A stretch of 64,000 nt of DNA, taken from contig JAIOHV010000197.1 of assembly GCA_019912885.1 (NCBI GenBank), positions 1 through 64,000 of the forward strand, in the 5' to 3' direction. The notes under the pieces are model-generated. The model saw only the letters and a program-made list of their open reading frames with translations. It was not told the origin of the DNA and ran no database searches. Position 1 is the first letter of the stretch, and each line of letters begins with the position of its first letter. The position numbers were made by a program, and so were the translations under genes. The stretch is from a bacterium (GTDB lineage: Bacteria; Lernaellota; Lernaellaia; JACKCT01). This document shows, piece after piece, positions 18,228-55,266 of the stretch.

Positions 18228-19862
18228 ATGCCCTTCAACGATCAAGAGCTTGTCGCGTTGATGACTCTCACGGCGATATTTTTTGTCTCCGCCGCGATTT
18301 TTCTCGCTCTGTTCCTGAAAACAAATCGCACGCTAACCCGCGTCGAGGCGGAACTCCGGCCGCTCGAGAAATATCGCGTCGTCCGCGATGCCGAAAAGCG
18401 TGCCCAGGAAATTTTGCTTGAAGCCGAGCGCCACGCGTCGGACATCGTCGAGCGCGCACGAGGACAAGCCATCGCGCTGGAGAAACAGGCGGAACGTCTC
18501 GTCGAAGAGACCAAAACGTTTTCGGAGGCGAAGAAGCGCGAGGCGCTGAACGAAGCCGCGACCTTGAAGGCCAACGCGGACGCCATCGTCAGTCAGGCAA
18601 AAATCGAGGGAGAGAGGATCGTCGAGGCGGCGCAAAAGCACGCCCGGGAAATCGCGGGCGACGCGCTGGACGCGAAGGAAAACGCGGATCATTACGAACG
18701 CACCGCGAAGGCCATGAAAAATATCGTGGAAGGCTACGGCGACCGGTATCTCATCCCTTCCTACACGCTGCTCGACGAACTCGCCGACGAATTCGGGTTC
18801 ACCGAGGCGGGTCAAAAACTGAAAGCCGCCCGGGAACAGATCCGGGGCATGATCAAAAGCGGCACCGCCGCCGCCTGTGATTACGTCGAGGCCAATCGGA
18901 AAGAGACGGCCGTCCGTTTTGTCCTCGACGCGTTCAACGGGAAGGTCGAGGAAATCCTGTCGCGGTTGAAACGCGATAACCACGGCACGCTGGCCCAGCA
19001 AATCAAGGACGCTTGTGCCGTCGTGAATCGTGAGGGGTCGGCCTTCCGGAACGCCCGCATCACGCCCGAATACCTGCAGGCCCGTCTCGACGAACTTCAT
19101 TGGGCCGCCGTCGCCAACGAAATCAAACTGAAGGAGCGCGAGGAGCAGCGCCTGCTGAAAGAAAGAATCCGCGAGGAGGAGCGGGCGCAGCGTGAATTTG
19201 AAAAGGCGGTGAGAGAAGCCGCCAAGGAAGAGGACGGGATCCGGAAAGCCATGGAAAAGATGCAAAAAGAGGTTGACAAGGCAAGTCTTGAGCAGCGCGC
19301 ACAATTCGAGGCGCAGTTGCTGGACTTGCAGGCCAAACTGGCGGAAGCCGAGGCGCGAGGGCAACGCGCGCTGTCGATGGCGCAGCAAACCAAATCGGGT
19401 CACGTCTACGTGATTTCCAATGTCGGATCGTTCGGCGACCACGTTTATAAGATCGGCATGACCCGAAGGCTGGAGCCGATCGATCGCATCCGGGAACTTG
19501 GGGATGCCAGTGTTCCATTCTCGTTTGACGTGCACGCGCTGATCCAAAGCGACGATGCCCCGGGGCTCGAGCGCGATATCCAGAAACGGTTTCTTCGGGA
19601 TCAGGTGAACAAGGTCAATCCGCGCAAGGAATTTTTCCGCCTGGCCCTCAAGGATATCCGTGAAGAAGTTGAGCGCATGGGCCTGCCCGTTTCCTGGACC
19701 GTGACCGCCGAAGCGCGCGAATTTCGGGAGACGCAGGCGATCGAGCTCGAGATGGCGAAGGACAAGCAAAAGGAGCGGGAGTGGATCGAACATCAGCTCA
19801 TCGCCCAGAAGGTCATGTCCATCGACGACGACGCGGGAGAGGCGGAGGCCGTTGCGAGCTAA
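18228..19862 (+). CDS. DUF4041 and T5orf172 (GIY-YIG) domain protein with membrane anchor
   Basis: A 544-residue protein. Residues 7-30 form a transmembrane helix, followed by a long charged coiled coil (about 35-155), a DUF4041-like region (about 155-300) with the YLIPSYTLLDELADEFGF block, a second coiled coil (about 300-385), and a C-terminal T5orf172 domain (about 390-490) with GHVYVISNVGSFGDHVYKIG, a GIY-YIG-type nuclease core. Such proteins are common on phages and mobile elements, and a role in restricting or processing foreign DNA is suspected but not established. ATG 18228 is about 170 bases after the previous gene. The membrane anchor is unusual for a nuclease. Confidence 0.8.
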   Translation: MPFNDQELVALMTLTAIFFVSAAIFLALFLKTNRTLTRVEAELRPLEKYRVVRDAEKRAQEILLEAERHASDIVERARGQAIALEKQAERLVEETKTFSEAKKREALNEAATLKANADAIVSQAKIEGERIVEAAQKHAREIAGDALDAKENADHYERTAKAMKNIVEGYGDRYLIPSYTLLDELADEFGFTEAGQKLKAAREQIRGMIKSGTAAACDYVEANRKETAVRFVLDAFNGKVEEILSRLKRDNHGTLAQQIKDACAVVNREGSAFRNARITPEYLQARLDELHWAAVANEIKLKEREEQRLLKERIREEERAQREFEKAVREAAKEEDGIRKAMEKMQKEVDKASLEQRAQFEAQLLDLQAKLAEAEARGQRALSMAQQTKSGHVYVISNVGSFGDHVYKIGMTRRLEPIDRIRELGDASVPFSFDVHALIQSDDAPGLERDIQKRFLRDQVNKVNPRKEFFRLALKDIREEVERMGLPVSWTVTAEAREFRETQAIELEMAKDKQKEREWIEHQLIAQKVMSIDDDAGEAEAVAS

Positions 19863-26572: not shown

Positions 26573-28258
26573 TTACGCCGCCGCGAACACCCCATGCTCC
26601 CCGTGCCAGCCCTCGCCGTCCCACACGCGCCCCTCGGAAAAATGGCGGATGTCGCCGGCGATGGTTTTCCAGACGACCTTGCGCACGGCGCGGCGGCGGC
26701 GGAAGACGCGGCGGTAGAGGTATTCCTCGGTCACCTCGACGTCCGCGACGGCCGTCATGTTGACGTGCAGCTCCGCCCAATGCAGGTCGGGGATGTCCGC
26801 CGGGCCGTCGACGGTGTAGCCCTCGGTCACCGTGGCGGCAAAGCCGTAAAAGGCGAGAAGCTCCGTTAAGCCGGGAACGGTGCCGTCCTTTTTCTTCTGG
26901 CCGAACTCGGCCACCAGACGTTCGCGAAAGGCCTCCTCGCCCTCGATGAGCTTTCGTTTCAGGTCGCGGTTGACCCCGTGGACGGCGTCCAGGCTCGCCC
27001 CTGTCGCGCGCGCGAGGATCGCCGCATCGCGCTGCTCGACGATGTACGCCCTCTGTTCGTCGAACTCGCGGCCGGCGGCCTGCACCATTGCGAATTGCGG
27101 GAGCGCGTCGATCTTGGCCTGCGTGTCGGCGGGATCGTTCCGGTTCATCCGGAAATCGCGGCCGAACGCCGGATAGGCGTAGCCATCCTCGCCCACGGGC
27201 GCGGTGGTGAGCGGCGCGGAGGGCGGCGCGGCGAAGATGTTGGCGAGGCTGTCGATGCCGTAGCGGAAGACGAAATTCAGCGGCAGCACGCTCTCGCCGT
27301 CGGTCGCGACGATCTTCGTGTCGATTTCGATCTCGTCTGACGATATCGCCTTGACCGTGACGCGGGATTCGCCCGCCTTCACGCGCGGGGCGAGCCCTTC
27401 CCTTTTCAGGCTCGCGGCGATCTGCCCGGCCAGGCGCGATTTCGCGTCGCCGGCGTCGGGCTCCCCGAGAAAGTCGTTGACGCCCGCGCCGAGGTTCGGG
27501 TGCGCGTGAAAATCCCCGCGCGGGGATTCGAGGATGTTCGCCACGTCCTGCAAAAGGCAGGTGACGCCGTCGGGTGTGAAGGCCAGATCCCCGGAGGCCG
27601 TGAAGGCCATCGGGTATTTCTTGAGCGCCCGCGGAAGAAGCCACCAGAGGAAATTTCCGGCCGGCGAGTCGTATTCGATTTCAAAGTCGTCGAAGGTCGC
27701 GGCCGCGGCGGCTTCGCCGTCGGAGACCACGGCCATGCCCAAGATCGCCGGCTCAAGGGGAAAGTCGTCGACGTTGGAGACGAGCTCGCCGCCCGCCCAA
27801 ATCTGAACACGGCCCGCGTCGCGCCGGACGCGCACGAGAAGCGGGTAACCGGCAAGGTCCGCCAGGCGCCGCTCGATGATCGTATCCCCGCGCCAGGAAT
27901 AGACGACGACGCTCCGCCCGCCGCCGATGTCGCGCAAGACGCCGATCTGCTCCTGCGTGAACGTCGGACCCGTCCCGCGAAGGGCGAACCAGGCGAATTG
28001 GTTGCCGTCCGCGGATTCCTCGAAATCGTCGCCGGTGAAGCGCAGCGTCAGGTCGAGCCGGCCGACGGGATGCCGGAACTGCACGCTCGCGCGCCGGGAC
28101 GCGTCGGGGAGGCTTTCGGGCGCCTCGTTGACGGCAAGACGCAGTTCGCCGCCCGCGATTTCGACCGCGCCGGTCTCGTAGCCGGCGCCGAAATCCGAAA
28201 GCTCCGTCTTCCACTTGCCGGACAGATCGGGGCCGTCGAAGCCGTCGGAATATTCCAT
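26573..28258 (-). CDS. Baseplate fusion protein: lectin-like + gp25-like + tail protein I-like
   Basis: A 561-residue protein. Residues 1-197 form a concanavalin/LamG-like beta sandwich ending in ATFDDFEIEYDSP. Residues about 222-333 (GDLAFTPDGVTCLLQDVANI, LGAGVNDFLGEPD, NFVFRYG) match the gp25/GpW baseplate wedge family. Residues 334-561 resemble the tail protein I (P2 gpI) position and layout. In most contractile tails these are separate genes; here one chain would put a carbohydrate-binding domain on the wedge. Its start overlaps the stop of baseplate J by one base. The family assignment of the last third is the least certain. Confidence 0.7.
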   Translation of the reverse strand: MEYSDGFDGPDLSGKWKTELSDFGAGYETGAVEIAGGELRLAVNEAPESLPDASRRASVQFRHPVGRLDLTLRFTGDDFEESADGNQFAWFALRGTGPTFTQEQIGVLRDIGGGRSVVVYSWRGDTIIERRLADLAGYPLLVRVRRDAGRVQIWAGGELVSNVDDFPLEPAILGMAVVSDGEAAAAATFDDFEIEYDSPAGNFLWWLLPRALKKYPMAFTASGDLAFTPDGVTCLLQDVANILESPRGDFHAHPNLGAGVNDFLGEPDAGDAKSRLAGQIAASLKREGLAPRVKAGESRVTVKAISSDEIEIDTKIVATDGESVLPLNFVFRYGIDSLANIFAAPPSAPLTTAPVGEDGYAYPAFGRDFRMNRNDPADTQAKIDALPQFAMVQAAGREFDEQRAYIVEQRDAAILARATGASLDAVHGVNRDLKRKLIEGEEAFRERLVAEFGQKKKDGTVPGLTELLAFYGFAATVTEGYTVDGPADIPDLHWAELHVNMTAVADVEVTEEYLYRRVFRRRRAVRKVVWKTIAGDIRHFSEGRVWDGEGWHGEHGVFAAA

Positions 28259-29391
28259 CAGGGGACGACCTCCTCGTAGGCGATCTCAACGTCCCCCAGG
28301 ACGGGCAGCTCGTCCTCGCCGACCGGCACATCCGCCGCGGGGTCGGCAAAGACGACGTCGTAGGTTTCCTCCGGGCGCGTCACGATCTCGACGAGCTGCG
28401 TGAAGACGACCTTGCGCCCGACGCCGAGCGGCCGGATCCACTTGTAAAGCGCGGAGCCCAGGGGATTGAAGTAGGCGGCAAGCGCCTCGCGGATCGTGGT
28501 GTCGAGCGCCTCCTCGTCCGTGTTGGCGTAGCGGTAAACCGTCATCGACACGTCGACCGTGCGGTACGCCGGCGCAAGGACGAGGATGTCGTCGCCGCCG
28601 GCCTTGTGCGCGTCCACATACGCCTGCACCGTCGCGAGAAGGCCCGCGGTGGGCAGGCCCGCAGTGCCCAGGATGTAGATGTTCGTCGTGCCGCGGCCGC
28701 GCGGGAAATTGGAATCCACCCACGCGATCGCCACGGACGGGTCGGCGTCCATCGCCATGCTCGCGAGCGCCGCGTTCGTCGCGCCGGTGGCCAGGCGATC
28801 CCAGGCAAGCTGATAGCGCAGATACAGGCGCTCGTCGCTCTCGCGATCCGCGCCTTCGCGGGTGATCCAGCCGGCGCGGTTTTCGACCCGCTGGATGCCG
28901 GAGATGCCGGTGATGATTTTCGATATCGCCCCGACCGGGACGTTGAAATCCTGGCCCGCGCTTTCGGCCTCGACGCTGACGGCGACCTCCGTCTCGCCGG
29001 CGGGAAGCTCCGCGTCCGCAAGAACGAGGAAGCGGTAGGAGACGCCCGCGAGGTCTTTGTTCGTCGCGAGGATCTTGCCGGCCGCGATGGGGTAGCTCAC
29101 GTCCGCGGCGGCGCTGCGCGAAAGGTACACGACGCCCTGCGTCTTCACGGCGTCCTCGCGGACGAGGCTGCGATCCTTCACGATCTCGTCGAGCCAGACG
29201 CCCTTGGCGGTCGCGGCGATGGTGGAGCGCGCCGCCTCGGACCCGTAATCGTAAAACGCGGCCTGCGTGTCGCCGATCGCCTCGATGAGCGTGACGGCCG
29301 TGCCTCCCGCGTTGAAGTTCGAGACGCCGGCGCCGGCGAATCCCTCGGCGAGGTCGGCCTTGATCTCGGCGGCGGTTTTTTTCGTGGGCAT
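28258..29391 (-). CDS. Baseplate J / gp47-like protein
   Basis: A 377-residue protein with the baseplate J core: an N-terminal helical region (GVSNFNAGGTAVTLIEAIG), a central stretch with AGQDFNVPVGAISKI and the GISGIQRVENR motif, then GATNAALASMAMDADPSVA and the C-terminal part seen in gp47/J proteins. It forms the outer wedge of the contractile baseplate with gp25. It lies between the fusion baseplate protein and an uncharacterised tail gene, the usual order V-25-J-I slightly rearranged. Confidence 0.85.
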   Translation of the reverse strand: MPTKKTAAEIKADLAEGFAGAGVSNFNAGGTAVTLIEAIGDTQAAFYDYGSEAARSTIAATAKGVWLDEIVKDRSLVREDAVKTQGVVYLSRSAAADVSYPIAAGKILATNKDLAGVSYRFLVLADAELPAGETEVAVSVEAESAGQDFNVPVGAISKIITGISGIQRVENRAGWITREGADRESDERLYLRYQLAWDRLATGATNAALASMAMDADPSVAIAWVDSNFPRGRGTTNIYILGTAGLPTAGLLATVQAYVDAHKAGGDDILVLAPAYRTVDVSMTVYRYANTDEEALDTTIREALAAYFNPLGSALYKWIRPLGVGRKVVFTQLVEIVTRPEETYDVVFADPAADVPVGEDELPVLGDVEIAYEEVVP

Positions 29392-29400
29392 GATGTCTCC

Positions 29401-30714
29401 TTAGACTCCGAAAAGCTCGCCCACGGGGGCGAATTCGGGCCCGCCCGCGAGCAGGCAGGCGCCGACGACAAAGGATCGCGGGGGAAGCGGCAGGCGATCG
29501 TCGCCGGCCTCGACGGCGTCGAGCGCGTCAAAGAGCCCTTGCGCCCCCGTGGCCGAGTCCAGGCGGACGACGTACACGCCGGTCAGGGCGAGGATCTGCT
29601 CGACCCGCTCGATGAGGTTCTCGATGCGCTCGGCGGCGTCGCGCAGGTTTTTCGCCTTTTCCTTCAGGGCGTCGGCGAGCTCCTGGACCAGGGCGAGCAT
29701 CCCGTCGGACACCTCGAGCAGGCCGATGATCTTTTTGGCCTCGTCGGCGACGGCGCGCACCGGCGGCAGGTCGCCGAGCTTTTTCGCGTTCCAGTCCGGC
29801 GCGCGGGCGGGGCGGCTTGTCGCCGGGCCCGTGCCCGTCAGCAGGATCGGCGTGCCGGCGGCGTGGTCGGCGGAAAGCGGATCGTAGAGCGCGAAGGACT
29901 TTTTGGCCCGGTCGATTTTTTTCACGGTGACGAACTGGTCGTTGTAGAAATCCGCGGACGCCGCGGACCGCTTGATCCAGACGTAGTCGTCCTCGTGAAA
30001 ATTGTCGGTCGTCGTGACGAAGATTTCGCGGTCGCCGGCCTTGCCCGCCCTCGCGAACTGCGTGATCGCCAGGCGGTCGAGAATCTTCTTGAACGCGTCG
30101 ATCCCGAGCAGCGTTCCGATCGCCTTCAAGAGCGCGGGCAGGCCGTCAAGCGAGGGTGTCCCGGCGACGAGGAGCAGGCAGGAGACGCTCGCCGAATCGC
30201 TGAAGGCGGGGCGTTGCGCGTCGCCTTGGTCCTCGAAGGAGGCCTTCCAGCGGCGCGTCCAGCCCGCGAAGCCGTAGGCGGTGCCGGGAGACAGCGGCAA
30301 TTCCGCGTCCTTGAAGGGCGCCGGCTCCTCGCCTCTCGCGCGCGCGGCCGCGGCCTCCTTTTCGTAGGCGACGCGGCGCTTGCGTTCGGATTCGTCGATA
30401 TCCATCATCCGGGCGAGCTGCTTCGCATCGAAGGCGCGCGTGGCGTAGAACGGAAAGCCCGTCGCGTCGTAGTAGAGATAGACGCCGGTGCCGAGGATGT
30501 CGGTGAGCGTGTCGCGGAGCTTTTTGACGAGCGCCTGAATCGCCGCGCGCGCGGGATCCGTGACGTCGTACAGAAAATCGCTGACCGTCTCGATGCCGCC
30601 CGCGATGGCCTCGGCGTTCGATCCGACCGTCTCGGCCACGGCGCCCGTCGCCTGGAGAGCGGATTTCGTCGGGCCGGGGAAAAGCGATTCGGCGTTGAAG
30701 GGCTGCCAGCTCAT
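29401..30714 (-). CDS. Phage tail/baseplate protein of unknown function
   Basis: A 437-residue protein, mostly helical, with a coiled-coil stretch (LADALKEKAKNLRDAAERIE, about residues 330-365) and a central beta region (GWTRRWKASFEDQG, DREIFVTTTDNFHEDDYVW). It is not recognised. Its place directly upstream of baseplate J and same strand argue for a structural role. ATG 30714 lacks a Shine-Dalgarno sequence: a run of GAGGATCGAGGATTG-type simple repeats lies where it should be, so insertion of a repeat has probably replaced the original leader. Confidence 0.55.
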   Translation of the reverse strand: MSWQPFNAESLFPGPTKSALQATGAVAETVGSNAEAIAGGIETVSDFLYDVTDPARAAIQALVKKLRDTLTDILGTGVYLYYDATGFPFYATRAFDAKQLARMMDIDESERKRRVAYEKEAAAARARGEEPAPFKDAELPLSPGTAYGFAGWTRRWKASFEDQGDAQRPAFSDSASVSCLLLVAGTPSLDGLPALLKAIGTLLGIDAFKKILDRLAITQFARAGKAGDREIFVTTTDNFHEDDYVWIKRSAASADFYNDQFVTVKKIDRAKKSFALYDPLSADHAAGTPILLTGTGPATSRPARAPDWNAKKLGDLPPVRAVADEAKKIIGLLEVSDGMLALVQELADALKEKAKNLRDAAERIENLIERVEQILALTGVYVVRLDSATGAQGLFDALDAVEAGDDRLPLPPRSFVVGACLLAGGPEFAPVGELFGV

Positions 30715-31115
30715 ATTTGAGGATCGAGGATTGGGGATTGAGGATCGAGGGCCGTCACGAGATTCCTCCGCGTTCTCCGCGATCGTGCGAGGCAAGGTGC
30801 GGCGGGAGGAAGGGCGGCGCGTTTTTTACCGCTAAGGCGCGAAGGAAACGCGAAGGGAAAATGTCAGAGCCGCAAACGAAGCGAAGCGAAGTGCGCGGGT
30901 ATCCGAAAAAGCGTCAGTGCCGCAAGCGGCAAAGCGCGAACGTGGCGACGTCTGAGCCGCAAACGCAGGCCGGAGCGAAGCGATGGCGGAGTGCGCGGGT
31001 AGCCCTGGGAGCGCAGGCGGCTCGCCTGCCTATGGACGCCGTTACGCAGACGCGTTAAGAAACCTTGCAAGTCTTTTTTCGCTGACCCGCCAAACCGGCG
31101 TTTGGGAGGCCTGGA
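30715..31115. repeat. Intergenic region with dispersed repeats, copy D
   Basis: From 30719 there are imperfect copies of GAGGATCGAGGATTG. GGAAGGGCGGCGCGTTTTTT (30808-30827) runs into ACCGCTAAGGCGCGAAGG. Three TC(A/T)G(A/T)GCCGCAA units follow (30865, 30913, 30951), two of them ending in AGTGCGCGGGTA. A hairpin GCAGGCG-GCT-CGCCTGC lies at 31012-31028. No gene is seen. Position: junction between the phage tail gene and the third cargo block. Confidence 0.7.
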
Positions 31116-31745
31116 ATGGCGCAACTTCGTTGGTTTTTTGTCGAAAACGACGCTCATCGCACGGTGCCATACCGATGCGGATATTGCGAACGCGACGTCT
31201 CGGCGAACACGACATGCATTTTGCAGGAATATACTCCTCGATCCCCGCGTGACTGGGTTGCGACCGGACAATTTGCCATCGCATGCCCGCATTGCCATAA
31301 ATGGTCGAATATGACCAACGATAGTGTCGAACCCTTGCCCCGTTTTGGAAGAGAAATCGAACATTTGCCGACGGATGTTGGGTCGATTTATGAGGAAGCG
31401 CGCGCGTCCATGGGTGCAGGTGCCCCGACGGCCGCCGTCATGTGCTGTCGAAAAATTATTATGAACCTTGCCGTTGAGGAGGGCGCCACACCAGGTCTGA
31501 AATTCGTCGAATATCTCGACGATCTTCGGAAAAAAGGCCACATCCCGCCGCGTTGGCAAGGATGGGTTGAGAGCATTCGAAAGGCTGGCAACGAAGCGAC
31601 CCACGAGGTCGAGCCGCAAACGCTCGATGAGGCCAGGCGAACGATGGACTTCACGGCCATGCTGCTCGCCGCGCATTACGAAGGACCGGGGCGATTAAAT
31701 ATGCTGGAGCCTAGCGTCGAGACAGAACGAGATAGGACAAAATGA
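31116..31745 (+). CDS. DUF4145 domain protein with zinc ribbon
   Basis: A 209-residue protein. An N-terminal CGYC...CPHC ribbon (residues about 21-61) precedes a DUF4145 domain: GAPTAAVMCCRKIIMNLAV, then IPPRWQGWVESIRKAGNEAT and the final TMDFTAMLLAAHYEG. DUF4145 is common in anti-phage loci and fused to restriction-type proteins, but its molecular role is unclear. GGGAGG lies seven bases before ATG 31116. Its stop overlaps the next start (ATGA), so the two proteins are made together and probably work together. Confidence 0.8.
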   Translation: MAQLRWFFVENDAHRTVPYRCGYCERDVSANTTCILQEYTPRSPRDWVATGQFAIACPHCHKWSNMTNDSVEPLPRFGREIEHLPTDVGSIYEEARASMGAGAPTAAVMCCRKIIMNLAVEEGATPGLKFVEYLDDLRKKGHIPPRWQGWVESIRKAGNEATHEVEPQTLDEARRTMDFTAMLLAAHYEGPGRLNMLEPSVETERDRTK

Positions 31746-32377
31746 CCCCCTCCAAACCGAATCTAACCCCTCACAACACGATCGACGACGCGGCGATAAG
31801 AGGCGAAGCCTGCGTTGAAAAAAACTTGAATCAGCTCGAGACAGAAAAACGCAAGCGGGAAATCGCCGAAAAAATCAAGGCCGAAAATCGCGTTTTTTTC
31901 ACGCTCGCAATAAAAGTCGCAGGCGTCGTATTTGGCCTTTGGCTTTTGTTCGGTTGGATCGCACCACCCGGCGATGCCGAACGTGCTGGGCAATTTGGCG
32001 ATCAGTTCGGTTCGGTCAACGCCTTATTTTCCGGCCTAGCATTTGCCGGCGTCATCGTCGCACTCATAATGCAACGTCGCGAATTGCAACTTCAACGAGA
32101 GCAGCTTGAGGCACAACTGGAGGAACTCACACTCGCTCGTGCTGAATCAGTACAGACACGAGGCGTCTTGGCTCTGCAACAGGAAAACATGGCCCAAACT
32201 GCTCGCGCGCAAAGGCTTCAAGCGGAACTCACTGCAAGAGCGATTTATCTAGATCGTCATCTAATGCCAATAGCAAAGACAGCCGGGTTAAAGGGCCAGC
32301 AGGCGCATGTAAATATCGAGCGAGAAATACAACGCATAAATAATATAATTTCTTCTCTTTCCAACAACGACCCATGA
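31742..32377 (+). CDS. AbiC-like membrane protein with coiled coil
   Basis: A 211-residue protein. Two transmembrane segments (about residues 53-72 and 92-110) surround a short loop with GQFGDQFGSVNALFSGLAF; then IMQRRELQLQREQLEAQLEE starts a coiled coil. This layout is seen in putative phage abortive-infection (AbiC-type) membrane proteins. If so, it would sense or execute membrane damage in infected cells. The function is inferred from topology and from coupling to the DUF4145 gene. Confidence 0.6.
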   Translation: MTPSKPNLTPHNTIDDAAIRGEACVEKNLNQLETEKRKREIAEKIKAENRVFFTLAIKVAGVVFGLWLLFGWIAPPGDAERAGQFGDQFGSVNALFSGLAFAGVIVALIMQRRELQLQREQLEAQLEELTLARAESVQTRGVLALQQENMAQTARAQRLQAELTARAIYLDRHLMPIAKTAGLKGQQAHVNIEREIQRINNIISSLSNNDP

Positions 32378-32613: not shown

Positions 32614-35427
32614 TCACACGCCTCTTATTTTCTGTAGACTTATACCGATTTTATCACTAAGCTGTGGAACATGTGATGCCACGAAACTCGAAACCCATTC
32701 GATTTCCTCTAGCCATTTCGCGGGAACGCTTTCAAACATCACCTTTAATTTTTCAATTTGGCCAGCCAAGTCGGAGAACCAATCAACTATTAAGTCATCA
32801 ATCACAGATACGTATGGCAGGTACTTGTCGCCTTTCCGCGTCAACGTGGCCCGATGCGAGGTGGACGACTCCATAAATGCGTTGAAACTTCGAACATAAA
32901 GGTCCGTCGCAGAACATCTGCAGTTCAATTCATTACACCGCATTCTGTAAACATCCGCCAGAGATGACCGCTGAATATCACATAATCTGGAGTACTCCTC
33001 GTCAAATAATTCATTCAGCCCAACCAACGCAAGCCGCAACCGACTCTCGATATATCCCTCGTCAAACGCGCCGTAGCGACTTTTGTATTTATCAATAATG
33101 TATGGCATTCGAGATAGATACGTTTGCATGTAAACCGGATGACTTATCAAATTTTGGAAATATTTTACACCTGTAATCGACAAAGATATGTTCGAAATAT
33201 TTGAGTGAGCCATAAGCTCTGCGATAGACTCGAAGGAAAGCCTGCGATCAACCCACACAACTTGACGTTTTTTATCCGCCATATTGTTGATTGTCAACAA
33301 CAAATAGGTATTAAATTTTTCTTCATTCAAGCGCCCGGAAACTGTGAAATGCCGGTACATCTCGTCGTAAAAAAGCGCTACTCGCATTTTATTAGAAGAG
33401 ATTTCACTCAATAAATACAATATACGAAGACCCATAGGCATCAATTGTTTTCCATCGTACGAAAACACATTTGCGGCGTATCCAGAATCCCCCGATTTCC
33501 CCGATGGCTCAGTCACCAATAGCGCCCTAGCCGCATCAAATCTATTATTTACTCGCAATAATTGCTGGACGATTTTCGTGTTTGCTATTTCCGGATCTTT
33601 CACATGGTCTCGTCGTAAAGGGGGTCGCCCAATACGGTCCCCAAATCCGAACTCGCGCCCTTTTTCAATTGATCCTATTAAAAAATTTTTAACAACTTCT
33701 GTAATCTCAGTTGGGACGCCGATACTTTGTAGTGACGTCGATACCGTATTTGTGACAGTTTTTATAATACTATTAATTACCTCAACACTAAACTCGTTCG
33801 AACGCGACGCCTTTTTATTTCGCCTGACAGCAATTGCAACCGCTTGACTTAAAAAATTATAGTAGTCTTCTTGCTTCGAATATAGTTCGACAACGGCCGG
33901 AATTTTTCTATATATATCGTTTAACATCGCTCCCGATTTAGCGCCGTGATGCTGACTTACGCTCATAAACATAGTACACCATGCATCAACGATTTTTTTT
34001 GCAAAAAACTCGCCAATTGGTGTCTGTGCCTCCTCTTCGCCGCGCCCATTTACCAAACTAATTACGCCATTATCTTTGCTGTATTTATTGACAAACATCG
34101 ATGAGTAATAAATAGATTCTGAAATTGCCGTGAACGCAATCGTCGTCGATAATGATGCCTGAACGTCTTCGCTGCCTCCCTCTAAATACGCGTAATCCCG
34201 ATTGATAATTTGACTTTTTGCCCACGCTTGGGAAATATACATCGCATTTCTTATGTCTGTTCCGCACAGTGCTTCGAATATATTTCGAAAATCGTCGTCC
34301 CGTGATTGCAGTCGTAGCCACAGCTCGAAAAGTCTCGCATACATCGTCGCGCGTACGTCACTCTCAATTATTGTTTGATAAGCATCATACGAAGACGGAT
34401 CTAATAAAAATCGCGAAAGACGACGAACGGCAATATCCGTTGGCATCGCGCCCGAGTGGCAGTAATAGAAAAAAGGATGTGAAGCGACATTTGTCTCAAA
34501 ATTTGTAAGTCTAACTGGAACGAGAATCTGAAACGTTAAATATTGCGATATCGGAAGCAGAAGTGCTATTATATGTTGCTGTAAATACTCCTGCAACGGG
34601 TCAATATTGTCAATGAGAAGTACGGTTTTAAATGAGTTGCGCTCTTTATCTCTGTTTATTGAATCCAGCACGGCGAGCCAAAAAATGAGGCGGTCTGCAC
34701 TTGTAAACGACCGACACCACGCTAACAATAAATCGTGATTAATTTTGCCATTCTTTAGCAATCGGTCAATGTTACTGACGCCTTTTGCCTCTTGGGCGTA
34801 ATCATTTAACTGTTGGTACTTACTTTCAAAGCCACCTTCGTCGATTGATCTCCTGTTTAAATTGATCGCGAAAATTAGAATTTCAGCGAGACTTTCTGCA
34901 TCAATATTTGCAATTATTTCGGATTCGAGTTGTTTTGCGAAATACCTGACGATATACTTTTCTTGGCCCGTACCGTCGCCATCTAAGGTTTTCATTTTTT
35001 GTTTAAAATCCGCCTTGTTAAAGTCCAGCATAATATACGGCAAGGCTCTATGATGTTCTTGGTTCTTTCGATTTCGGCGCTCGCCTTTGATTATATGTTT
35101 AATAATATATCTAATCGACGAGGTTTTTCCAGCGCCGGCCCCACCGACGATCGCTACCAAAGGACCAGGACTTTGTAATATCGTCGCAACCGTGTGACGT
35201 TCGTACGGGCCCAGCGATGTTACATCCACTGCTGTGCTGATATCACGTTCAGAGAGATCTTGGCAAAATCTAGCGTGTTGGCCGTCAATCAGCTCGCGGC
35301 GAACGTCCATTATTAGACTTTGAAAATAACGCGGGTCATCGTGAACTGGATGGGGCGGGAACACATGGTCTGTGATATGATCCATCGTGTCTGAAAAATC
35401 ATCATCGGCTTTAATGCGATTTGGCAT
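32614..35427 (-). CDS. Large P-loop NTPase, AT-rich, unknown (possible STAND/defence ATPase)
   Basis: A 937-residue protein. Walker A is GGAGAGKT (residues 95-102), Walker B is TVLLIDNID (268-276, Asp 273) and the stretch ILVPVRLTN (301-309) fits a sensor I strand, so the first about 320 residues are an AAA+/STAND-like ATPase. The remaining about 600 residues are helical and unrecognised, with a few cysteines (CNELNCRCSA near residue 845). No nuclease or membrane motif is visible. The gene is far richer in A and T than any neighbour, with frequent AAT, ATT and ATA codons, pointing to recent acquisition. It is convergent with the DUF4145/AbiC pair and has its own leader with AAAGGAAA before the ATG. 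Confidence 0.65.
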   Translation of the reverse strand: MPNRIKADDDFSDTMDHITDHVFPPHPVHDDPRYFQSLIMDVRRELIDGQHARFCQDLSERDISTAVDVTSLGPYERHTVATILQSPGPLVAIVGGAGAGKTSSIRYIIKHIIKGERRNRKNQEHHRALPYIMLDFNKADFKQKMKTLDGDGTGQEKYIVRYFAKQLESEIIANIDAESLAEILIFAINLNRRSIDEGGFESKYQQLNDYAQEAKGVSNIDRLLKNGKINHDLLLAWCRSFTSADRLIFWLAVLDSINRDKERNSFKTVLLIDNIDPLQEYLQQHIIALLLPISQYLTFQILVPVRLTNFETNVASHPFFYYCHSGAMPTDIAVRRLSRFLLDPSSYDAYQTIIESDVRATMYARLFELWLRLQSRDDDFRNIFEALCGTDIRNAMYISQAWAKSQIINRDYAYLEGGSEDVQASLSTTIAFTAISESIYYSSMFVNKYSKDNGVISLVNGRGEEEAQTPIGEFFAKKIVDAWCTMFMSVSQHHGAKSGAMLNDIYRKIPAVVELYSKQEDYYNFLSQAVAIAVRRNKKASRSNEFSVEVINSIIKTVTNTVSTSLQSIGVPTEITEVVKNFLIGSIEKGREFGFGDRIGRPPLRRDHVKDPEIANTKIVQQLLRVNNRFDAARALLVTEPSGKSGDSGYAANVFSYDGKQLMPMGLRILYLLSEISSNKMRVALFYDEMYRHFTVSGRLNEEKFNTYLLLTINNMADKKRQVVWVDRRLSFESIAELMAHSNISNISLSITGVKYFQNLISHPVYMQTYLSRMPYIIDKYKSRYGAFDEGYIESRLRLALVGLNELFDEEYSRLCDIQRSSLADVYRMRCNELNCRCSATDLYVRSFNAFMESSTSHRATLTRKGDKYLPYVSVIDDLIVDWFSDLAGQIEKLKVMFESVPAKWLEEIEWVSSFVASHVPQLSDKIGISLQKIRGV

Positions 35428-35808: not shown

Positions 35809-35994
35809 TCAAGCGCCGTTCGTCGATTGGCGCTGGCTGGGCATCCGGCCGTTTTTGCCGCGACAGTCGTGAGGTTCGATCGATAGCAGCTTCCGCGCCC
35901 GCCTCTCCTCGCCTTCCGCCTCCTCGCGAAGCCTCTCCACCACGGGCGCGGCCTGCTCCCGCAGCTTCAGTTTCGCGGGCTTCCAACCGCCCAC
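35809..35994 (-). CDS. Small basic protein coupled to the baseplate spike gene, possibly truncated
   Basis: A 61-residue frame. Its GTG start shares a base with the TAG stop of the spike gene (TAGTG), so it is positioned for coupled translation. Residues 10-40 form a charged helix (REQAAPVVERLREEAEGEER). It is not recognised. The frame runs into the AT-rich cargo side, so its C-terminus may have been cut by the cargo insertion. Confidence 0.4.
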   Translation of the reverse strand: MGGWKPAKLKLREQAAPVVERLREEAEGEERRARKLLSIEPHDCRGKNGRMPSQRQSTNGA

Positions 35995-37196
35995 TAGAAC
36001 GGCCCGCCGAAATAGACACGCGGGCTCAGGATCGGGAGCGCCGGGAGGCCGGGGACGGCCGGCGAGCCGAACAGAGCGACGATGAGATTGGTCGTCGCCG
36101 TCTCGATCGAGCTTGTCAGCGTCGCGGTGATGCCGGACAGGGACGACGGCGTGATGGGATTCGGAAGCCCGGCGACGGCCAGGTTGTAAACGCCAACGGC
36201 CGCGCTCAGGGCTTCGAGGTAGGTCGCGAGGTACACGGCCAGGCTTAAGCCGTTCACCATCGGCTGGCTCGTGCCCGGGATAAATTTCCCGCCGAAGACA
36301 TTCAGGCCCGGGCCGCCGATTTCCACGCAGACGAGATCGTCGCCGGAGGGCAGGCTTCCGTCGGGCGCAAGGCCCGTGGCCATGATGCGCAGGCGGCCGC
36401 CGATGACGACGGATTTGTTCTTCGCAACCGCCTCGTCCTCGTCGCCGAGCACCTTCTTTTTGCGGTCGCCGGCGACGTCGTAATCCTCGCGGCCGGAAAC
36501 CTTGCGGCGGGCCGCCCCGTGGACGATTTTCGCGTGCTGATAGTCGCGCGTGACGGCGCCCATTTCCTCGGAATAGTCGCCGTGCTCCTCGAAATTTTTG
36601 CTGACGAAATGGCGCGCGCCGTCCTCGAGGGTGACGGTGTCGTCGCCGGCGATGGTGCGCTCCCGGTTGCCGCCCACGCGCTTGAAATCGTTGCCCTGCA
36701 CCTCGCCGTTCGCGTTGCCCGCCGTGCGCTCGCTGCGCGTGCCCGCGACCTCGTCGTCAAGGTTGTAGGCGCGAATGACAACCTCACCCGTGTCCGGACG
36801 CAGGACGATCCGCTGCCCGGAATTGTCCGCGAAGACGAAGCTCCCGACGCGGCTGCCGAGCGGCGTGCGGTTGGCGAGAAAGTCCACCCCGTCCACGCGG
36901 GGCTGCGTGATGTCCTGTCCGCGGAAGCTGACGTTGACCTCGCTCCCGATTTCCGGGAGCGCCCAGACGCCGAAGCCGTCCCCGCCGGCCAGGCACGATA
37001 CCGGCGTCTTCGGAAGAAGCCAGGGCGTCGGATCCTCGGCGTCCTCGTCGGGTTTCACCTCGATGTCCACCGTGTGGGCGTCGTCGTCAACGGCGATGAC
37101 CATGCCGGGGACGTTCGGCCTAAGGAAGCGGCGAAGATCCGGGGGCGCGGACTCGAAGATGCGCTTTAGCTCCGCCGCGATCCGGTGGTTGCTCAC
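35994..37196 (-). CDS. Baseplate assembly/spike protein (gpV / gp45 type)
   Basis: A 400-residue protein. The N-terminal about 130 residues form the OB-fold typical of baseplate V (VPGMVIAVDDDAHTVDIEV, VSCLAGGDGFGVWALPEIGS, VSFRGQDITQPRV). The middle is a repeat-rich stretch (VGGNRERTIAGDDTVTLEDG, VSGREDYDVAGDRKKKVLGD) resembling the Vgr-type beta-helix. The C-terminus is hydrophobic. It is the membrane-piercing spike of the contractile tail. GTG 37196 is chosen because it overlaps the upstream stop as GTGA; ATG 37211 is an alternative. Confidence 0.85.
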   Translation of the reverse strand: MSNHRIAAELKRIFESAPPDLRRFLRPNVPGMVIAVDDDAHTVDIEVKPDEDAEDPTPWLLPKTPVSCLAGGDGFGVWALPEIGSEVNVSFRGQDITQPRVDGVDFLANRTPLGSRVGSFVFADNSGQRIVLRPDTGEVVIRAYNLDDEVAGTRSERTAGNANGEVQGNDFKRVGGNRERTIAGDDTVTLEDGARHFVSKNFEEHGDYSEEMGAVTRDYQHAKIVHGAARRKVSGREDYDVAGDRKKKVLGDEDEAVAKNKSVVIGGRLRIMATGLAPDGSLPSGDDLVCVEIGGPGLNVFGGKFIPGTSQPMVNGLSLAVYLATYLEALSAAVGVYNLAVAGLPNPITPSSLSGITATLTSSIETATTNLIVALFGSPAVPGLPALPILSPRVYFGGPF

Positions 37197-37969
37197 GCCG
37201 CGCCCACCCATTCGTAATCGACGATGACGCGGGAGCCGCGGCCGTCGATCTGCGTTTCCACGTTCGCGGCGAACAGGCGGGAGACGGTTTCGTCCAGGGC
37301 GGCGAGATCGATCACCGCCGCCGGCTCGATGACGCGGCCGAACGTCACCAGCCGTCTGCGCAGGCGGTCGATGTCAAGAAGGTCCCCGTCCTCGTAAAGC
37401 GTCATCGAGGACTCGGCGGCGATCGCGGCCGTGCGCGTCGTCCAGGTGAAGACGCCGTTTTCGTCAAGGAAAGCGACGGACTTTGTTTTCGCGCGCAGGT
37501 CCATTGCGGCGATCGCCTCGGCGACGGACTGCCCATTCAGGGGCAATTTGTCGATGACGAATTCGGATTCCGCGATGCCAGCGGTGTCGATGCCAAGCTC
37601 GCCGACAAGCGTCCGCAGGATCTCGGCGACGGTCTGCGACTCGAACGTGCGCGTGAATTTTACGGTCTGCAGAAGATTCCAGGCATCCGCGGCGAAGACC
37701 TCGTACTGGAAATTTTCGCGGGGGACGGCCTTCAAGATTTTGCCGGAGAAAATGGGCTGGCGCTCGCCGTCAAAGGTCCAGGCGAACGAAAGCGGGGCGT
37801 CCTGGGACAGGAGCGGGGAAAGATCGCCGATGCCGTCCTCGACGACTCCGCGAAGGGTCCGCGGCCGCGCCCAGGCCGACGCCGAAACGACGGCGCTTTT
37901 GGCGATGTCGGCGAACTCGACGCCGCCGGCGACAAGGATGTCGCTCCGCGTCTGGAAAACGTGCGCCAT
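37193..37969 (-). CDS. Baseplate hub protein (gpD / Mu gp44-like)
   Basis: A 258-residue protein directly upstream of the spike gene, the usual place of the hub/late control protein gpD. FSGKILKAVPRENFQYEVFA and the FTRTFESQTVAEILRTLV helix (about residues 105-122) are typical of the second hub domain. The hub links the tail tube to the spike. It overlaps both neighbours by one to four bases. Confidence 0.7.
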   Translation of the reverse strand: MAHVFQTRSDILVAGGVEFADIAKSAVVSASAWARPRTLRGVVEDGIGDLSPLLSQDAPLSFAWTFDGERQPIFSGKILKAVPRENFQYEVFAADAWNLLQTVKFTRTFESQTVAEILRTLVGELGIDTAGIAESEFVIDKLPLNGQSVAEAIAAMDLRAKTKSVAFLDENGVFTWTTRTAAIAAESSMTLYEDGDLLDIDRLRRRLVTFGRVIEPAAVIDLAALDETVSRLFAANVETQIDGRGSRVIVDYEWVGAA

Positions 37970-38670
37970 CAGCCGTTGTCTCCAAGCCCCATTGCCTGGC
38001 GCAGGCCGTCGCGGAAGGCGTCGGAGCGCTGTTTTTCGCTTTCGGTTTTCGGGGATTTGGACGGGAGGGTTGCGTCCGAATTGCCCGAGCCGTTCGCGCC
38101 GCTTGATCCTCCGGACCCGGCGCCCGGCCCGCTTCCCCCGTCCCCTCCACCGGGGGCGGCGCCGTCGCCTTTTTTTCGCGCGGTCGCCGGCGCCTTGATC
38201 TCGCGGAGGGTGACGTTTGCGGTGACGAGGTCCGCGCCGACGGTGTCCGCGGCTTCGAATTGCGCGACGTAGACGAATTCGAGGTCCGATCGATCGACCA
38301 TCGGGTGGCGGACGGCGAACAGGCGATTGCCCCCCGCGTCGTTTTTGGCTTTCAGCGCGGCGTGCATGGCGTCGTATTTGTCGATCGCGGACAGGTCGCC
38401 CCCTTCCTCGTCGGAGAGGATTTCGATCTGGAAGACGATCTCGACCGGCTCGAAGTCCTTGGCCTGCACGGATTTCGTGGAGGCGTCCTTTTTGCCTTCC
38501 TCGGTCACCTTGGCCTGGTTGCGAACGGCGACCGATCCGACGGGGGGGAACTCGTAGAGGACCGTCGCGAAATCGGGCACCCAGGCCCCGCCCTCGCCTT
38601 TGGCCGCCTCGCAGAGCTTGACGGTGATCGGCTGTTCATCCTCGTAAGGGTTGTCCTCAAGCGGCGCCAA
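37969..38670 (-). CDS. Phage tail protein with Gly/Ser-rich linker, unknown
   Basis: A 233-residue protein. Residues 1-165 are a beta-rich domain (ITVKLCEAAKGEGG, FEPVEIVFQIEILSDEEGGD); residues about 166-200 are Gly/Ser-rich (GGGDGGSGPGAGSGG) and disordered; the tail is a short helix. It lies between tape measure and hub, the position of tube-baseplate adaptor proteins. No family is recognised. It overlaps the hub gene by one base and the tape measure by fourteen. Confidence 0.55.
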   Translation of the reverse strand: MAPLEDNPYEDEQPITVKLCEAAKGEGGAWVPDFATVLYEFPPVGSVAVRNQAKVTEEGKKDASTKSVQAKDFEPVEIVFQIEILSDEEGGDLSAIDKYDAMHAALKAKNDAGGNRLFAVRHPMVDRSDLEFVYVAQFEAADTVGADLVTANVTLREIKAPATARKKGDGAAPGGGDGGSGPGAGSGGSSGANGSGNSDATLPSKSPKTESEKQRSDAFRDGLRQAMGLGDNG

Positions 38671-41038
38671 GGCTCACGCCCTCGAGCTCGTCGCCGATGT
38701 CTTGCAGGACCGCCAGGAGATTTTTCTTGAAGTCGGCGAGCGTCTGCTCCGCGTTTGCGCCCGAGACGACAAACGCGCCCGGCTGGATGTTGACGACGAT
38801 CTGGCGGGAGCTGCGCGTGTTGTTCGTCGTGGATCCGCCGGAATCGAAATCGTCGAAGACCGGGCCGAAGGCCTCGTTCGCCGAGGACGCGATCGCCGGC
38901 GCGCCCAGGTCCATGCCTTTGGCGAAGGTTTGCGAGAAGGCCATGCCGCGGCCGGTCAGATTGGACAGGGGCCCGAGGCGCGCGTCGGAGCCGGGCAGGT
39001 AGGCCAGCACCTTGCCGAGGACGCCGCCGAGACCGTCCTTGAGCGTCGTCCAGCCGGTCTTGATCCCCTCGACGAAGGCGGTGATGAGGCCGAATCCGGC
39101 TTCCTTGAAGTTGCCCCACAGCGACGAAATCAGATTCCCGAAGTTCTTGAGCTGCTCGACGACCAGGTTGATGTTCGCGTCGACCACTTCGCCGATTGTC
39201 GCCCAAGCGCCGCGCCAGTCGCCGAGCAATAGCTGTGCACCGGCCTTGATGATCCCCGCCACGGTGGTGACCATCGTTCCGACGATGCCCGAAACCAGAT
39301 TCCACGCGAACCGGACGATCGCGACGATGTTGTTCCACGCGCCCTTGAAAATGACGGCGATGACCGGCCACGCGGAGGTCCAGAGCGCGAGCGTGCCCAT
39401 GACCGCGGGTTTCAGGACCGACACGAAGATGCCGGCAAGCACCTGAAGCACGGCGCCGATATACGGGAACACGTCGTTGGCGACGCGCTTCAGCTTGATC
39501 CACGTCCCGTAGGCGTAGCCGAAGACGAAGCCGATCGCGTAGGAGATCCTCGTCAGCGCGACCTCGAATTTGTCGCGCAGAACGGAGACGACGCCGTTCA
39601 CGGCATTCCGGAACGTCTCGGAGTGTCTGTAGGCGAGGTAGAGACCGCCCGCGATCGCCGCGATCGCAAGGACCACGGGATTGGCGAGCAGGCCGAGAAA
39701 GGCTTTGCCCAGGGCGATGACGCCGAAGCGCGCGAGCTGCAACCAATTGGCGAGCGCGACAAAGCCCGTGCCGCCGAACAGCCCGCCGATGGCGATCACC
39801 GCGAAGGCGACCTTGCCCGCGAGAAACAGGAACGCGCCGCCGAGAACGAAGGTCGTCGCCGCGAGAAGGCCGATCACCCCGGCGAATTTGAGGAACGTCG
39901 GATGCGCCCGGGCGAAATCCCGGAACGCGCGCGCGATGGGGACGACGCCGTCGAGGATCGCTTTCAGCGGGTCCAGGAGCGGCGTGCCGAGCGAGGCGGC
40001 GATCAGCTTGATCTGGTTGCCGATGACCGTGAGCTTCCCGCCCGCGGAGTCCTGAACGTTTTTCAGCTCGTTCGTGAGCGAGATGTTTTCGGCGAACGCG
40101 GAATTGGAAAGGCCAAGGTTGGTGCGCATCTTGTCGAGCCCGCCGGCCAGGCGCTGGACCGTTTCGACGGCCTCCTGCTCGAAGATGCCCTTGATCGCGG
40201 TCGCGCGCACGGCCGGGTTGATTTCCTTGATCTTCCCGAGCAGGTCCGTGAACGCGCCGATGCCGTCGGTCTGGACGCGCTGCTGCCATTCCCCGACCGA
40301 GACGCCCATGATCTTCGCGGCCTGGCCGGCCTGCGTCTGCATCCGGAGAAAGACGTTCCGAAGCGCCGTGCCGCCGCGCTCCGCCCCGAGCCCCATGTCC
40401 GCAAGCGTCGCGCCCAGGCCCGCGACCTGCTGAAAGGTCAGGTTCTCGATCGGCCGGCCGATGCGGGCCATGGCATCGACGATGAATTGCGCGGAGGCGT
40501 TCGTCGTGTTGGAGAGCTCGTTGATCGAGCTTCCCATGTTCTCGACGTTCTGGAGCGGGATCTTGAAGACGTTCGCGAAGCCGGCGAACGCGGAGGACGC
40601 GCCCTCGGCCGAAAGGTCCGAGACCGCCTCCATCTTCGCGACGGCCTGGGTGAAGCTGAAGATGTTTTTGGCGCCCGTGATGCCGAGTTGCCCGGCGGTC
40701 GCCGCGATCGTTTGCAGGCCCTGGATCGTCGTCGGCACACCGTTGTCGACGATCCCGGTGATGCCCTCCTCGATGTCAGAAAACGCGAGGTTCGTCGTCT
40801 TGCGGACATCGACCATGCCGGTTTCAAACGCGATCGCGCTTTTGGCGGGGATGGCGAAAAGCGCCCCGGTGATGACGCCGGCGACGGCCAGGCGCTTGGC
40901 GAAACTGGTGACGCCGGCGATGGCGGACTTCACCTTGTTCAGATCGTTGGTCACCTGCTTGGCCGGCGTGCTGACGTTATTGACGCCGACGAAGTTGATC
41001 CGGATCTGGTGCAAAAAATTGCCGAGAGCGCCGAACAT
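38657..41038 (-). CDS. Tail tape measure protein (TP901 type)
   Basis: A 793-residue protein. The N-terminal 360 residues carry the TP901 core (FETGMVDVRKTTNLAF, IVDNGVPTTIQGLQTIAATA, GQLGITGAKNIFSFTQAV, GLGATLADMGLGAERGGTAL). Then follow several hydrophobic helices (about 400-560), and an amphipathic C-terminal part with NNTRSSRQIVVNIQPG. Its length sets the tail length. ATG 41038 is preferred to TTG 41059 because a GGGGGCG ribosome-binding site precedes it. It follows the frameshifted chaperone gene, as in other tail modules. Confidence 0.9.
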   Translation of the reverse strand: MFGALGNFLHQIRINFVGVNNVSTPAKQVTNDLNKVKSAIAGVTSFAKRLAVAGVITGALFAIPAKSAIAFETGMVDVRKTTNLAFSDIEEGITGIVDNGVPTTIQGLQTIAATAGQLGITGAKNIFSFTQAVAKMEAVSDLSAEGASSAFAGFANVFKIPLQNVENMGSSINELSNTTNASAQFIVDAMARIGRPIENLTFQQVAGLGATLADMGLGAERGGTALRNVFLRMQTQAGQAAKIMGVSVGEWQQRVQTDGIGAFTDLLGKIKEINPAVRATAIKGIFEQEAVETVQRLAGGLDKMRTNLGLSNSAFAENISLTNELKNVQDSAGGKLTVIGNQIKLIAASLGTPLLDPLKAILDGVVPIARAFRDFARAHPTFLKFAGVIGLLAATTFVLGGAFLFLAGKVAFAVIAIGGLFGGTGFVALANWLQLARFGVIALGKAFLGLLANPVVLAIAAIAGGLYLAYRHSETFRNAVNGVVSVLRDKFEVALTRISYAIGFVFGYAYGTWIKLKRVANDVFPYIGAVLQVLAGIFVSVLKPAVMGTLALWTSAWPVIAVIFKGAWNNIVAIVRFAWNLVSGIVGTMVTTVAGIIKAGAQLLLGDWRGAWATIGEVVDANINLVVEQLKNFGNLISSLWGNFKEAGFGLITAFVEGIKTGWTTLKDGLGGVLGKVLAYLPGSDARLGPLSNLTGRGMAFSQTFAKGMDLGAPAIASSANEAFGPVFDDFDSGGSTTNNTRSSRQIVVNIQPGAFVVSGANAEQTLADFKKNLLAVLQDIGDELEGVSLGAA

Positions 41039-41116
41039 TTCAGCGCCCCCGGCCGTCAATCAGGAGCATCGCATCGCTCGTCGTTTTGGGGTCAGGTTTC
41101 CCGAATCGCGTCTTTC

Positions 41117-42262: not shown

Positions 42263-43717
42263 CTAGCTCCTTTCGACGTGGACCCGGTGCCGGACCCGTC
42301 GCATCGTTCTCGTGTTCAAAATGCCCATATCGAAATCGACATCGCCTTCGGCGTCCTGCGTCACGTCGCTCTCGTACCCGGCGATCGTGCCGCGCCGGCC
42401 CGCGCTCGGGCTGTTCGGCATGCGATTTTCCAGCGGCTTTTCCATCGCCATCCGCAAGGCCGCGAGGCCGTCGTTCGTGTCGGGATCGTTCGGCTGGCCC
42501 CAGATGACCTTGCCGGCCTCGCGCGCCTCCATGCCGCAGGTGAAGATCGTCCGGATCACCTCGGCGTATTTGAAGTCGCTCGTGTTTTCGGCGAGCGTCC
42601 GGTCGTTGCCGATGATCACGCCGCGGCCTTCCTCGGTGCGCAGATAGCTGATCCGCGCGTCGGCCAGGTCGTTGCGCATCTCGACCGGGATCTCCGGCTC
42701 GAGGTCGCCTCCGTTCTGAACGAGGATGTTGACCGGCGAGCGGTTGATGTTCTCCGCGAACCACGCGCCGAGAAACTGCGCCGCCGTGGAGGCGACGTAT
42801 TCCTCGCCGTCGCCGTCGGTGTAGGTGCGCTGGCCCGCGACGCCGATCAGCTCGCGGTACGCCTCGCCCGTCGTTTCCTCGATGAGGCCATCGACCCACG
42901 CCTGCACGTCTTCGCGCCAGGCGCTCGAGTTGACGGGATTTTCCGTCTCGAAGGCCTTCAGTTCGACGACGACCAGGCGCTCGACCTGCTGGCTTGTCAG
43001 CATGTCGGCGGCGTGCGTCGCGAGGGCCTCACGAAGGCCGTCGTCCCCCTCGCCGACGTTGTCGAGCGTGAGAAGCAGGGGCAGCGTCTTTTCGTCCTTG
43101 GCAAGGTCGAGCGCGAGGATCAATTCGTCGCCGGTCCAGGTGCCGTTTGTCCCTCCCTCGAAATCCGTCCAGTCCGGGAGGTCCGCGGTCTCGCCGCCCC
43201 CCGCCGTGGCCGTGATCGAAAGGCTCGAATCGTTGACCGCCTCGACGATCTCCTCCTTCGTGCCCTCGAATTGCGTGACGTCGCCGTCCTCGCCGCGGCG
43301 GAGCGAGGCGACGTAATCGCCCTCCTCCTCGCCCTCCTCGGCCATGAACTGCCAGTCGTTGCCGCCGTCGCCCGTGTATTCGTATTCAAAGCTCACGAAC
43401 GCGGCCGACGAGCCGTTGTCCCACCAGACGAAGCTCGCCTTTTGGGCGCCGTCGCCGCAGCGGATCGCGTCGACGGTCAGCGGCTTCTTGTTCAGCACCG
43501 CCGCCGAAATCGACTCGCGAACCGCGCGCGGCAGGCGTTGGGACGTGCCGAACATCTCCTCGGCGGCGGCCACGCCGGACATGCCGGAGAAGGTCTGCTT
43601 CGTGTGAAGCGGGCCGTCGGAGCCAAGGCCCATCAGAAGGATCCGATGTTCGAGGCTTGTCGGCGCGTCGGACTGGAAATTGTCCTCGTATTCGGTTTCG
43701 ATTCTCGGCTCGCCCAT
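42263..43717 (-). CDS. Contractile tail sheath protein
   Basis: A 484-residue protein. The N-terminal about 95 residues and the C-terminal about 110 residues (AAQFLGAWFAENINRSPVN, GVIIGNDRTLAENTSDFKY, RTIFTCGMEAREAGKVIWG) resemble the DUF2586/gpL-type sheath, with a large acidic insertion (about 125-215) that would lie on the outer surface. The gene precedes the tube gene as in Mu-like tails. Its presence classifies the phage as contractile. Confidence 0.8.
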   Translation of the reverse strand: MGEPRIETEYEDNFQSDAPTSLEHRILLMGLGSDGPLHTKQTFSGMSGVAAAEEMFGTSQRLPRAVRESISAAVLNKKPLTVDAIRCGDGAQKASFVWWDNGSSAAFVSFEYEYTGDGGNDWQFMAEEGEEEGDYVASLRRGEDGDVTQFEGTKEEIVEAVNDSSLSITATAGGGETADLPDWTDFEGGTNGTWTGDELILALDLAKDEKTLPLLLTLDNVGEGDDGLREALATHAADMLTSQQVERLVVVELKAFETENPVNSSAWREDVQAWVDGLIEETTGEAYRELIGVAGQRTYTDGDGEEYVASTAAQFLGAWFAENINRSPVNILVQNGGDLEPEIPVEMRNDLADARISYLRTEEGRGVIIGNDRTLAENTSDFKYAEVIRTIFTCGMEAREAGKVIWGQPNDPDTNDGLAALRMAMEKPLENRMPNSPSAGRRGTIAGYESDVTQDAEGDVDFDMGILNTRTMRRVRHRVHVERS

Positions 43718-54821: not shown

Positions 54822-55210
54822 CGCTTCAGCTTTCCGGTGAGCGCGGCCGCGATACGCGAACGCAACAGCTTCAAGGCGTTGTCTTGGACCGTCCCGTCCG
54901 GATAGATCAGCCGCGTCGCCTTCGCGCGCGTGATGAGTACGCGGATCGAGGAAGGGCACGCGAGGTGGCGTTCCAGTTCCGATTCATCAAACCGGGAAAA
55001 TTGCCAAAGCCACTCCCACCGCGATCGCGCATTGATCGGTGGTTCGCTTTCGTCGGGCGTGAACACGACGGGGAATTTCGACCAGACGACGATGAGGCGC
55101 TGCAGCTCGATATCCTCGAGCAGCGGCACAATGTCCTCGTAGGCCGCCTCGCCCTTGATCGCGGCAAGAACGGCATGCGCAGGACGGCCGGCGGTCGATT
55201 CGACGCTCAT
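54818..55210 (-). CDS. Terminase small subunit, putative
   Basis: A 130-residue helical protein in the small-terminase position directly upstream of terL and coupled by ATGA. It has no recognisable HTH. The C-terminal SRIAAALTGKLKR is basic. It heads the late operon; a phage-wide repeat element lies 36 bp upstream. Name by position only. Confidence 0.5.
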   Translation of the reverse strand: MSVESTAGRPAHAVLAAIKGEAAYEDIVPLLEDIELQRLIVVWSKFPVVFTPDESEPPINARSRWEWLWQFSRFDESELERHLACPSSIRVLITRAKATRLIYPDGTVQDNALKLLRSRIAAALTGKLKR

Positions 55211-55245: not shown

Positions 55246-55266
55246 AGGGCGGCGATTTTTTTAGGT
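55246..55266. repeat. Phage-wide element, copy F
   Basis: AAGGGCGGCGATTTTTTTAG; minus strand CTAAAAAAATCGCCGCCCTT, 36 bp upstream of the small terminase start. It differs from copies A and E only around the middle. Confidence 0.6.

Follow-up and report, generated by a model that had tools for sequence, protein, structure and literature searches.

An orphan P-loop ATPase gene at a prophage cargo site as a candidate anti-phage or inter-phage conflict factor

What does an AT-rich gene for a 937-residue ATPase do among the tail genes of a G+C-rich prophage? The gene lies in a 64-kb window (the whole stretch of DNA analysed here) that contains a contractile-tail prophage, most of whose genes are on the minus strand (Table 1). 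The location in a prophage, proposed in an earlier sequence-only reading, is borne out by genes for sheath, tape measure, spike, a gpJ-like protein, portal and terminase.

Table 1. Positions of the ATPase gene, its motifs and the neighbouring features in the window
Feature	Positions	Strand	Basis and remarks
PD-Lambda-1 defence protein, DUF4041 + T5orf172/MUG113	18228..19862	+	PADLOC E 2e-109; Pfam
Tail-fibre gene	22208-24376
gpJ-like	28258-29391		prophage gene
Tail-module gene, other cargo anchor	29401..30795	-	44% identical to sibling prophages; likely start ATG 30714
DUF4145 (HEPN-superfamily) protein, zinc-ribbon-like CxxC...CxxC	31116..31745	+	Pfam E 5.5e-14; phrog_1305 E 1.9e-24
Two-TM + coiled-coil protein	31742..32377	+	phrog_8999 E 6e-12; hydropathy; start overlaps DUF4145 stop (ATGA)
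Orphan P-loop NTPase, cargo gene, 937 aa	32614..35427	-	ORF call; composition; RBS; no homologue
Helical C-terminal part, residues ~765-937	32617..33135	-	single-sequence AlphaFold2
Possible winged-helix-like stretch, residues ~664-760	33148..33438	-	by eye only; no Pfam or NCBIfam match
ILVPVR, residues 301-306, possible strand 4/sensor-1 position	34510..34527	-	by eye only; putative
Walker B LLIDNID (within VLLIDNID), residues 270-276	34600..34620	-	sequence; shuffles
Walker A GGAGAGKTS, residues 95-103	35119..35145	-	sequence; sub-threshold Pfam AAA_19/AAA_16; shuffles
Small phage gene kept from ancestral site, one cargo border	35809..35994	-	by eye: similar short ORF after spike in siblings L007 and L008
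Baseplate spike/hub-type protein, cargo anchor on one side	35994..37211	-	phrog_430/4011; 36% identical to sibling prophages
Hub and spike	35994-37969		prophage genes
Tape measure	38657-41059		prophage gene
Sheath	42263-43717		prophage gene
Portal	51814-53211		prophage gene
Terminase	53220-54959		prophage gene
Serine recombinase	57373-58188

The open reading frame of the ATPase is not a chance opening. At the gene's own composition, 937 open codons in a row are expected by chance with a probability of about 2e-27, and the other reading frames contain 33-73 stops each. A ribosome-binding site that we judged good (AAAGGAAA) is located 8-15 nt 5' of the ATG. The gene is single-copy in its own genome. 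Its G+C content is 41-43%, compared with 65% in the surrounding element. By codon position, the GC fractions are 0.48/0.36/0.43, against approximately 0.67/0.47/0.87 in the neighbouring phage genes. The extent and strand of the frame were thus exactly as first proposed, as was its strongly deviating base composition (GC3 of 0.43 versus about 0.85-0.90 in the flanking tail genes).

With the gpJ-like gene as query, we located two more prophages in the same genome (L007 and L008), which share the tail order and have proteins that are about 26-44% identical. In these siblings, the homologue of the gene at 29401-30795 comes 127 bp and approximately 240 bp after the spike, whereas the two genes are 5.2 kb apart in the window prophage. 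Both siblings are empty at this cargo site; only these two have the site, and no alternative cargo was seen. Because the siblings are empty and the small gene next to the spike has been kept, an insert of about 5 kb (roughly 30.8-35.8 kb) most likely entered the window prophage. The insert carries three genes, the DUF4145 and two-TM genes on the plus strand and the ATPase gene on the minus strand. A recent gain at a prophage cargo site, as had been suggested, is supported by the two empty sites, and the ATPase gene is well supported as an accessory cargo gene ('moron') of the prophage. Searches for att repeats and for repeats flanking the cargo gave none that were convincing, and the anchor genes found no relatives in IMG/VR. 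Short imperfect direct repeats (GAGCCGCAAACG..., GCGAAGTGCGCGGGTATCC) are observed near the cargo border at 30867-31004, possibly a dispersed repeat element. The baseplate gene of the sibling prophages is also present in two other genomes of the same small phylum.

The arrangement is similar to the antiviral hotspots of P2-like phages, in which 1-5 kb lie between two conserved phage genes (PMC9122126). As in these and in the hotspots of P4-like satellites, a few kilobases of foreign genes stand between two conserved phage genes. The contents of those hotspots vary among related elements, and the ATPase insert is absent from the related prophages. In P2, the hotspot is flanked by the genes for the replication endonuclease and the portal (PMC9519451). 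In contrast, the cargo described here is bounded by the spike and the tail gene that follows it, and the site is known from sequence, with empty siblings.

Two further genes of the window are recorded here. A TET-associated glycosyltransferase (TAGT) gene adjoins the terminase gene (55261-56016, minus strand; Pfam 34.9 bits, cut-off 27.5), and suggests hypermodification of phage DNA bases. Near the serine recombinase, an 1158-residue fusion of an N6 DNA methylase and an SNF2-type helicase is encoded at 58425-61901 on the minus strand (phrog_62; Pfam N6_Mtase, SNF2 and Helicase_C), an architecture that is DarB-like.

The Walker A and B motifs that had been noted in the protein are confirmed, with A preceding B. 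Shuffled versions of the protein contain a P-loop in 1.4% of cases, and none of 20,000 has a P-loop followed by hhhhDxx[DE]. The Walker B motif, DNID, has the form hhhhDxhD, and 172 residues separate the Walker A lysine from the Walker B aspartate. No transmembrane segment is predicted. These features show the predicted product to be a soluble protein with a complete P-loop NTPase signature. Single-sequence AlphaFold2 models of residues 1-420 and 345-937 (mean pLDDT of 34 and 37) are unusable for fold search. The last 150-170 residues or so were modelled as helices, with many blocks at pLDDT 55-74, and nearly everything else was below 50. The long helical C-terminus proposed earlier is therefore upheld for roughly this terminal stretch and not beyond it. 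Residues 345-937 gave no convincing match in Pfam or NCBIfam, and their model is moderately confident near the end only.

Searches of Pfam, NCBIfam, PHROGs and PDB sequences with the ATPase gave no match at cut-off or significance. About 1,600 genomes (386 + 64 + 397 + 9 + 399 + 386 from several phyla, some searched twice), 50,697 phages, 72,556 plasmids, IMG/VR and GTDB contigs yielded no relative. The genome matches that we inspected were UvrD/PcrA- or ABC-type P-loops (around residues 51-165) or short chance matches. The tblastn searches of the phages and plasmids, the latter also by segment at E<=10, revealed no relative; two weak plasmid matches of the middle segment fell on an unrelated maturase-like gene and on a part of a resistance plasmid that has no annotation. 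Viral contigs scanned with the full-length protein, its NTPase domain and two pieces of the C-terminal part, and genome contigs scanned with the full-length protein, gave nothing either. The same holds for contig scans keyed to the Walker patterns. Such pattern scans demand an exact short peptide, and distant relatives could escape them. What is new is thus a predicted ATPase that is an orphan, as far as the searched collections show, at a cargo site.

The best sub-threshold families on residues 60-345 are AAA_19 (E 1e-4), AAA_16 (E 0.0012; 19.9 bits, cut-off 32.6) and NPHP3_N (E 0.0021; 18.7 bits, cut-off 24.8). NACHT reached 12.0 bits against a cut-off of 26.7. Profile searches recognised no repeats, effector domain or named defence family in the protein. 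With AAA_16, NPHP3_N and NACHT below their cut-offs, the 'STAND-like sensor' that the sequence-only reading had proposed is not established. The best PADLOC match is Mad8 of the MADS system (PDLC04140; residues 86-278, E 1.6e-5). This model matches 290 of 290 genomes and 14 of 14 controls at E <= 1e-5, mostly in ORFs of UvrD size. We rejected Mad8 as the identity of the ATPase, as the model is unspecific and UvrD-like and a match to it means only 'P-loop'. Unlike a MADS locus, the cargo holds no other identified MADS gene, its neighbours being the DUF4145 and two-TM genes; lone Mad8 matches without a full MADS locus mean little.

The protein could be a true STAND NTPase or an ORC-like AAA ATPase that has diverged past present profiles, an assignment that would be compatible with a role as a conflict factor. 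Like STAND NTPases (including Avs and NACHT proteins), it is large and combines a Walker A motif and an hhhhDxhD Walker B motif with a long C-terminal part, and the sub-threshold AAA_16 and NPHP3_N matches fall on the NTPase region. However, every match is under its curated cut-off and is mainly to the P-loop, and 172 residues from the Walker A lysine to the Walker B aspartate is a long distance. In contrast to STAND NTPases, the protein shows no recognised repeats or effector and no significant match to solved structures, and we regard this assignment as possible, on the doubtful side. A degenerate or chimeric fragment of an SF1 helicase is very improbable. Residues ~62-115 resemble the stretch of UvrD/PcrA and RecD helicases that runs through Walker A, the best weak whole-genome matches are to UvrD/PcrA, and AAA_19 is the leading sub-threshold Pfam family. 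The likeness nevertheless stops by about residue 165, and no later helicase motifs follow. We read an SF1 helicase as excluded, since the Walker B motif is DNID rather than the helicase-type DExx and no GDxxQ motif III is seen by eye after it.

The two genes beside the ATPase gene had been described as an AbiC-like pair. The pair exists and the description is loosely right, but no AbiC-type Pfam model matched up to E 1. The matches are instead to DUF4145 and, below threshold, DUF6082, and we describe the pair as a DUF4145/HEPN protein and a two-TM coiled-coil protein. PF13643 (DUF4145) scores 52.4 bits against a cut-off of 23.1. The DUF4145 family has been associated with restriction and with abortive infection (PMC3710099), and it occurs in phages. 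The protein keeps an RKxGNxATH (RKxGNEATH) motif that is common to three aligned homologues, from Lactobacillus phage KC5a, a Terrisporobacter phage and a plasmid-borne prophage of Bacillus. On a Pantoea dispersa plasmid (4800-10250), we observed an unannotated DUF4145 homologue with an in-frame stop, which adjoins a DUF6602 protein and has a TIR-domain protein nearby, a defence-like neighbourhood.

The ATPase and the pair might form one three-gene abortive-infection system, with the ATPase as sensor and the HEPN RNase and membrane protein as effectors. All three genes are inside the same 5-kb insert and the HEPN motif is intact. However, the pair and the ATPase gene are convergent and form no operon, their compositions differ (GC3 of 0.57/0.49 in the pair versus 0.43), and no such ATPase stands beside the DUF4145 homologues annotated in phages and plasmids. 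Joint action is less likely on account of the convergent arrangement and the different compositions; we consider the three-gene system rather improbable, and the ATPase and the pair may be unrelated.

A homologue of PD-Lambda-1, a validated anti-phage family (PMC9519451), is located in the left flank of the prophage element, beside the tail-fibre gene. No convincing att repeats marked the prophage limits, and the gene may lie within or outside them. Its product matches a membrane-anchored DUF4041 protein that was obtained by functional selection in E. coli (PMC9519451). In that selection, 12 of 21 defence systems were in prophages and three of their proteins resemble no known domain (PMC9519451). 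The sequences of PD-Lambda-1 and the ATPase are unrelated, the former consisting of DUF4041 and a nuclease-like domain. The clear match to PD-Lambda-1 in the left flank makes defence cargo plausible.

Our main reading is that the gene encodes a prophage-borne accessory P-loop ATPase that is most likely a one-gene anti-phage or inter-phage conflict factor, to which we assign a probability of about 0.5. The gene would have been inserted, together with the oppositely encoded HEPN/two-TM pair, between two tail genes that would otherwise be neighbours. The nucleotide-bound N-terminal domain would serve as a switch, and the C-terminal part would either sense a component of the invading phage or bear a harmful or blocking activity. 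As judged from context, the ATPase would in this way act alone in defending the lysogen from rival phages. A defence role is plausible: the sibling sites are empty, the composition is foreign, PD-Lambda-1 is in the flank, and the cargo neighbour belongs to the HEPN superfamily. A recurrent defence neighbourhood is not demonstrable, the protein having no homologue in the searched collections, and no defence-specific profile matches it, the Mad8 model being unspecific.

Non-defence genes also occur among prophage cargo. The ATPase could thus be an accessory gene that acts in lysogeny control, phage DNA metabolism, host takeover or anti-defence. Its gene is on the same strand as the tail genes, orphan genes are many in phages, and the weak likeness of the Walker A region to UvrD/RecD-type helicases fits a DNA-related ATPase. 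Beyond Walker A, however, no helicase motifs are visible, and the deviating composition and the absence from the siblings suggest that the gene is dispensable for the phage cycle. We consider such a role unlikely.

The ATPase may be the first member of a family of conflict ATPases carried by phages, in which an NTPase switch is combined with a C-terminal sensor or effector unlike any described; with one prophage so far, we propose this tentatively. An anti-phage activity, if present, would make this protein a defence ATPase without detectable relatives. Cargo sites between anchor genes in prophages of poorly sampled phyla would then hold defence genes that are invisible to homology-based catalogues, and the tail-module cargo site is a testable place to seek more such genes.
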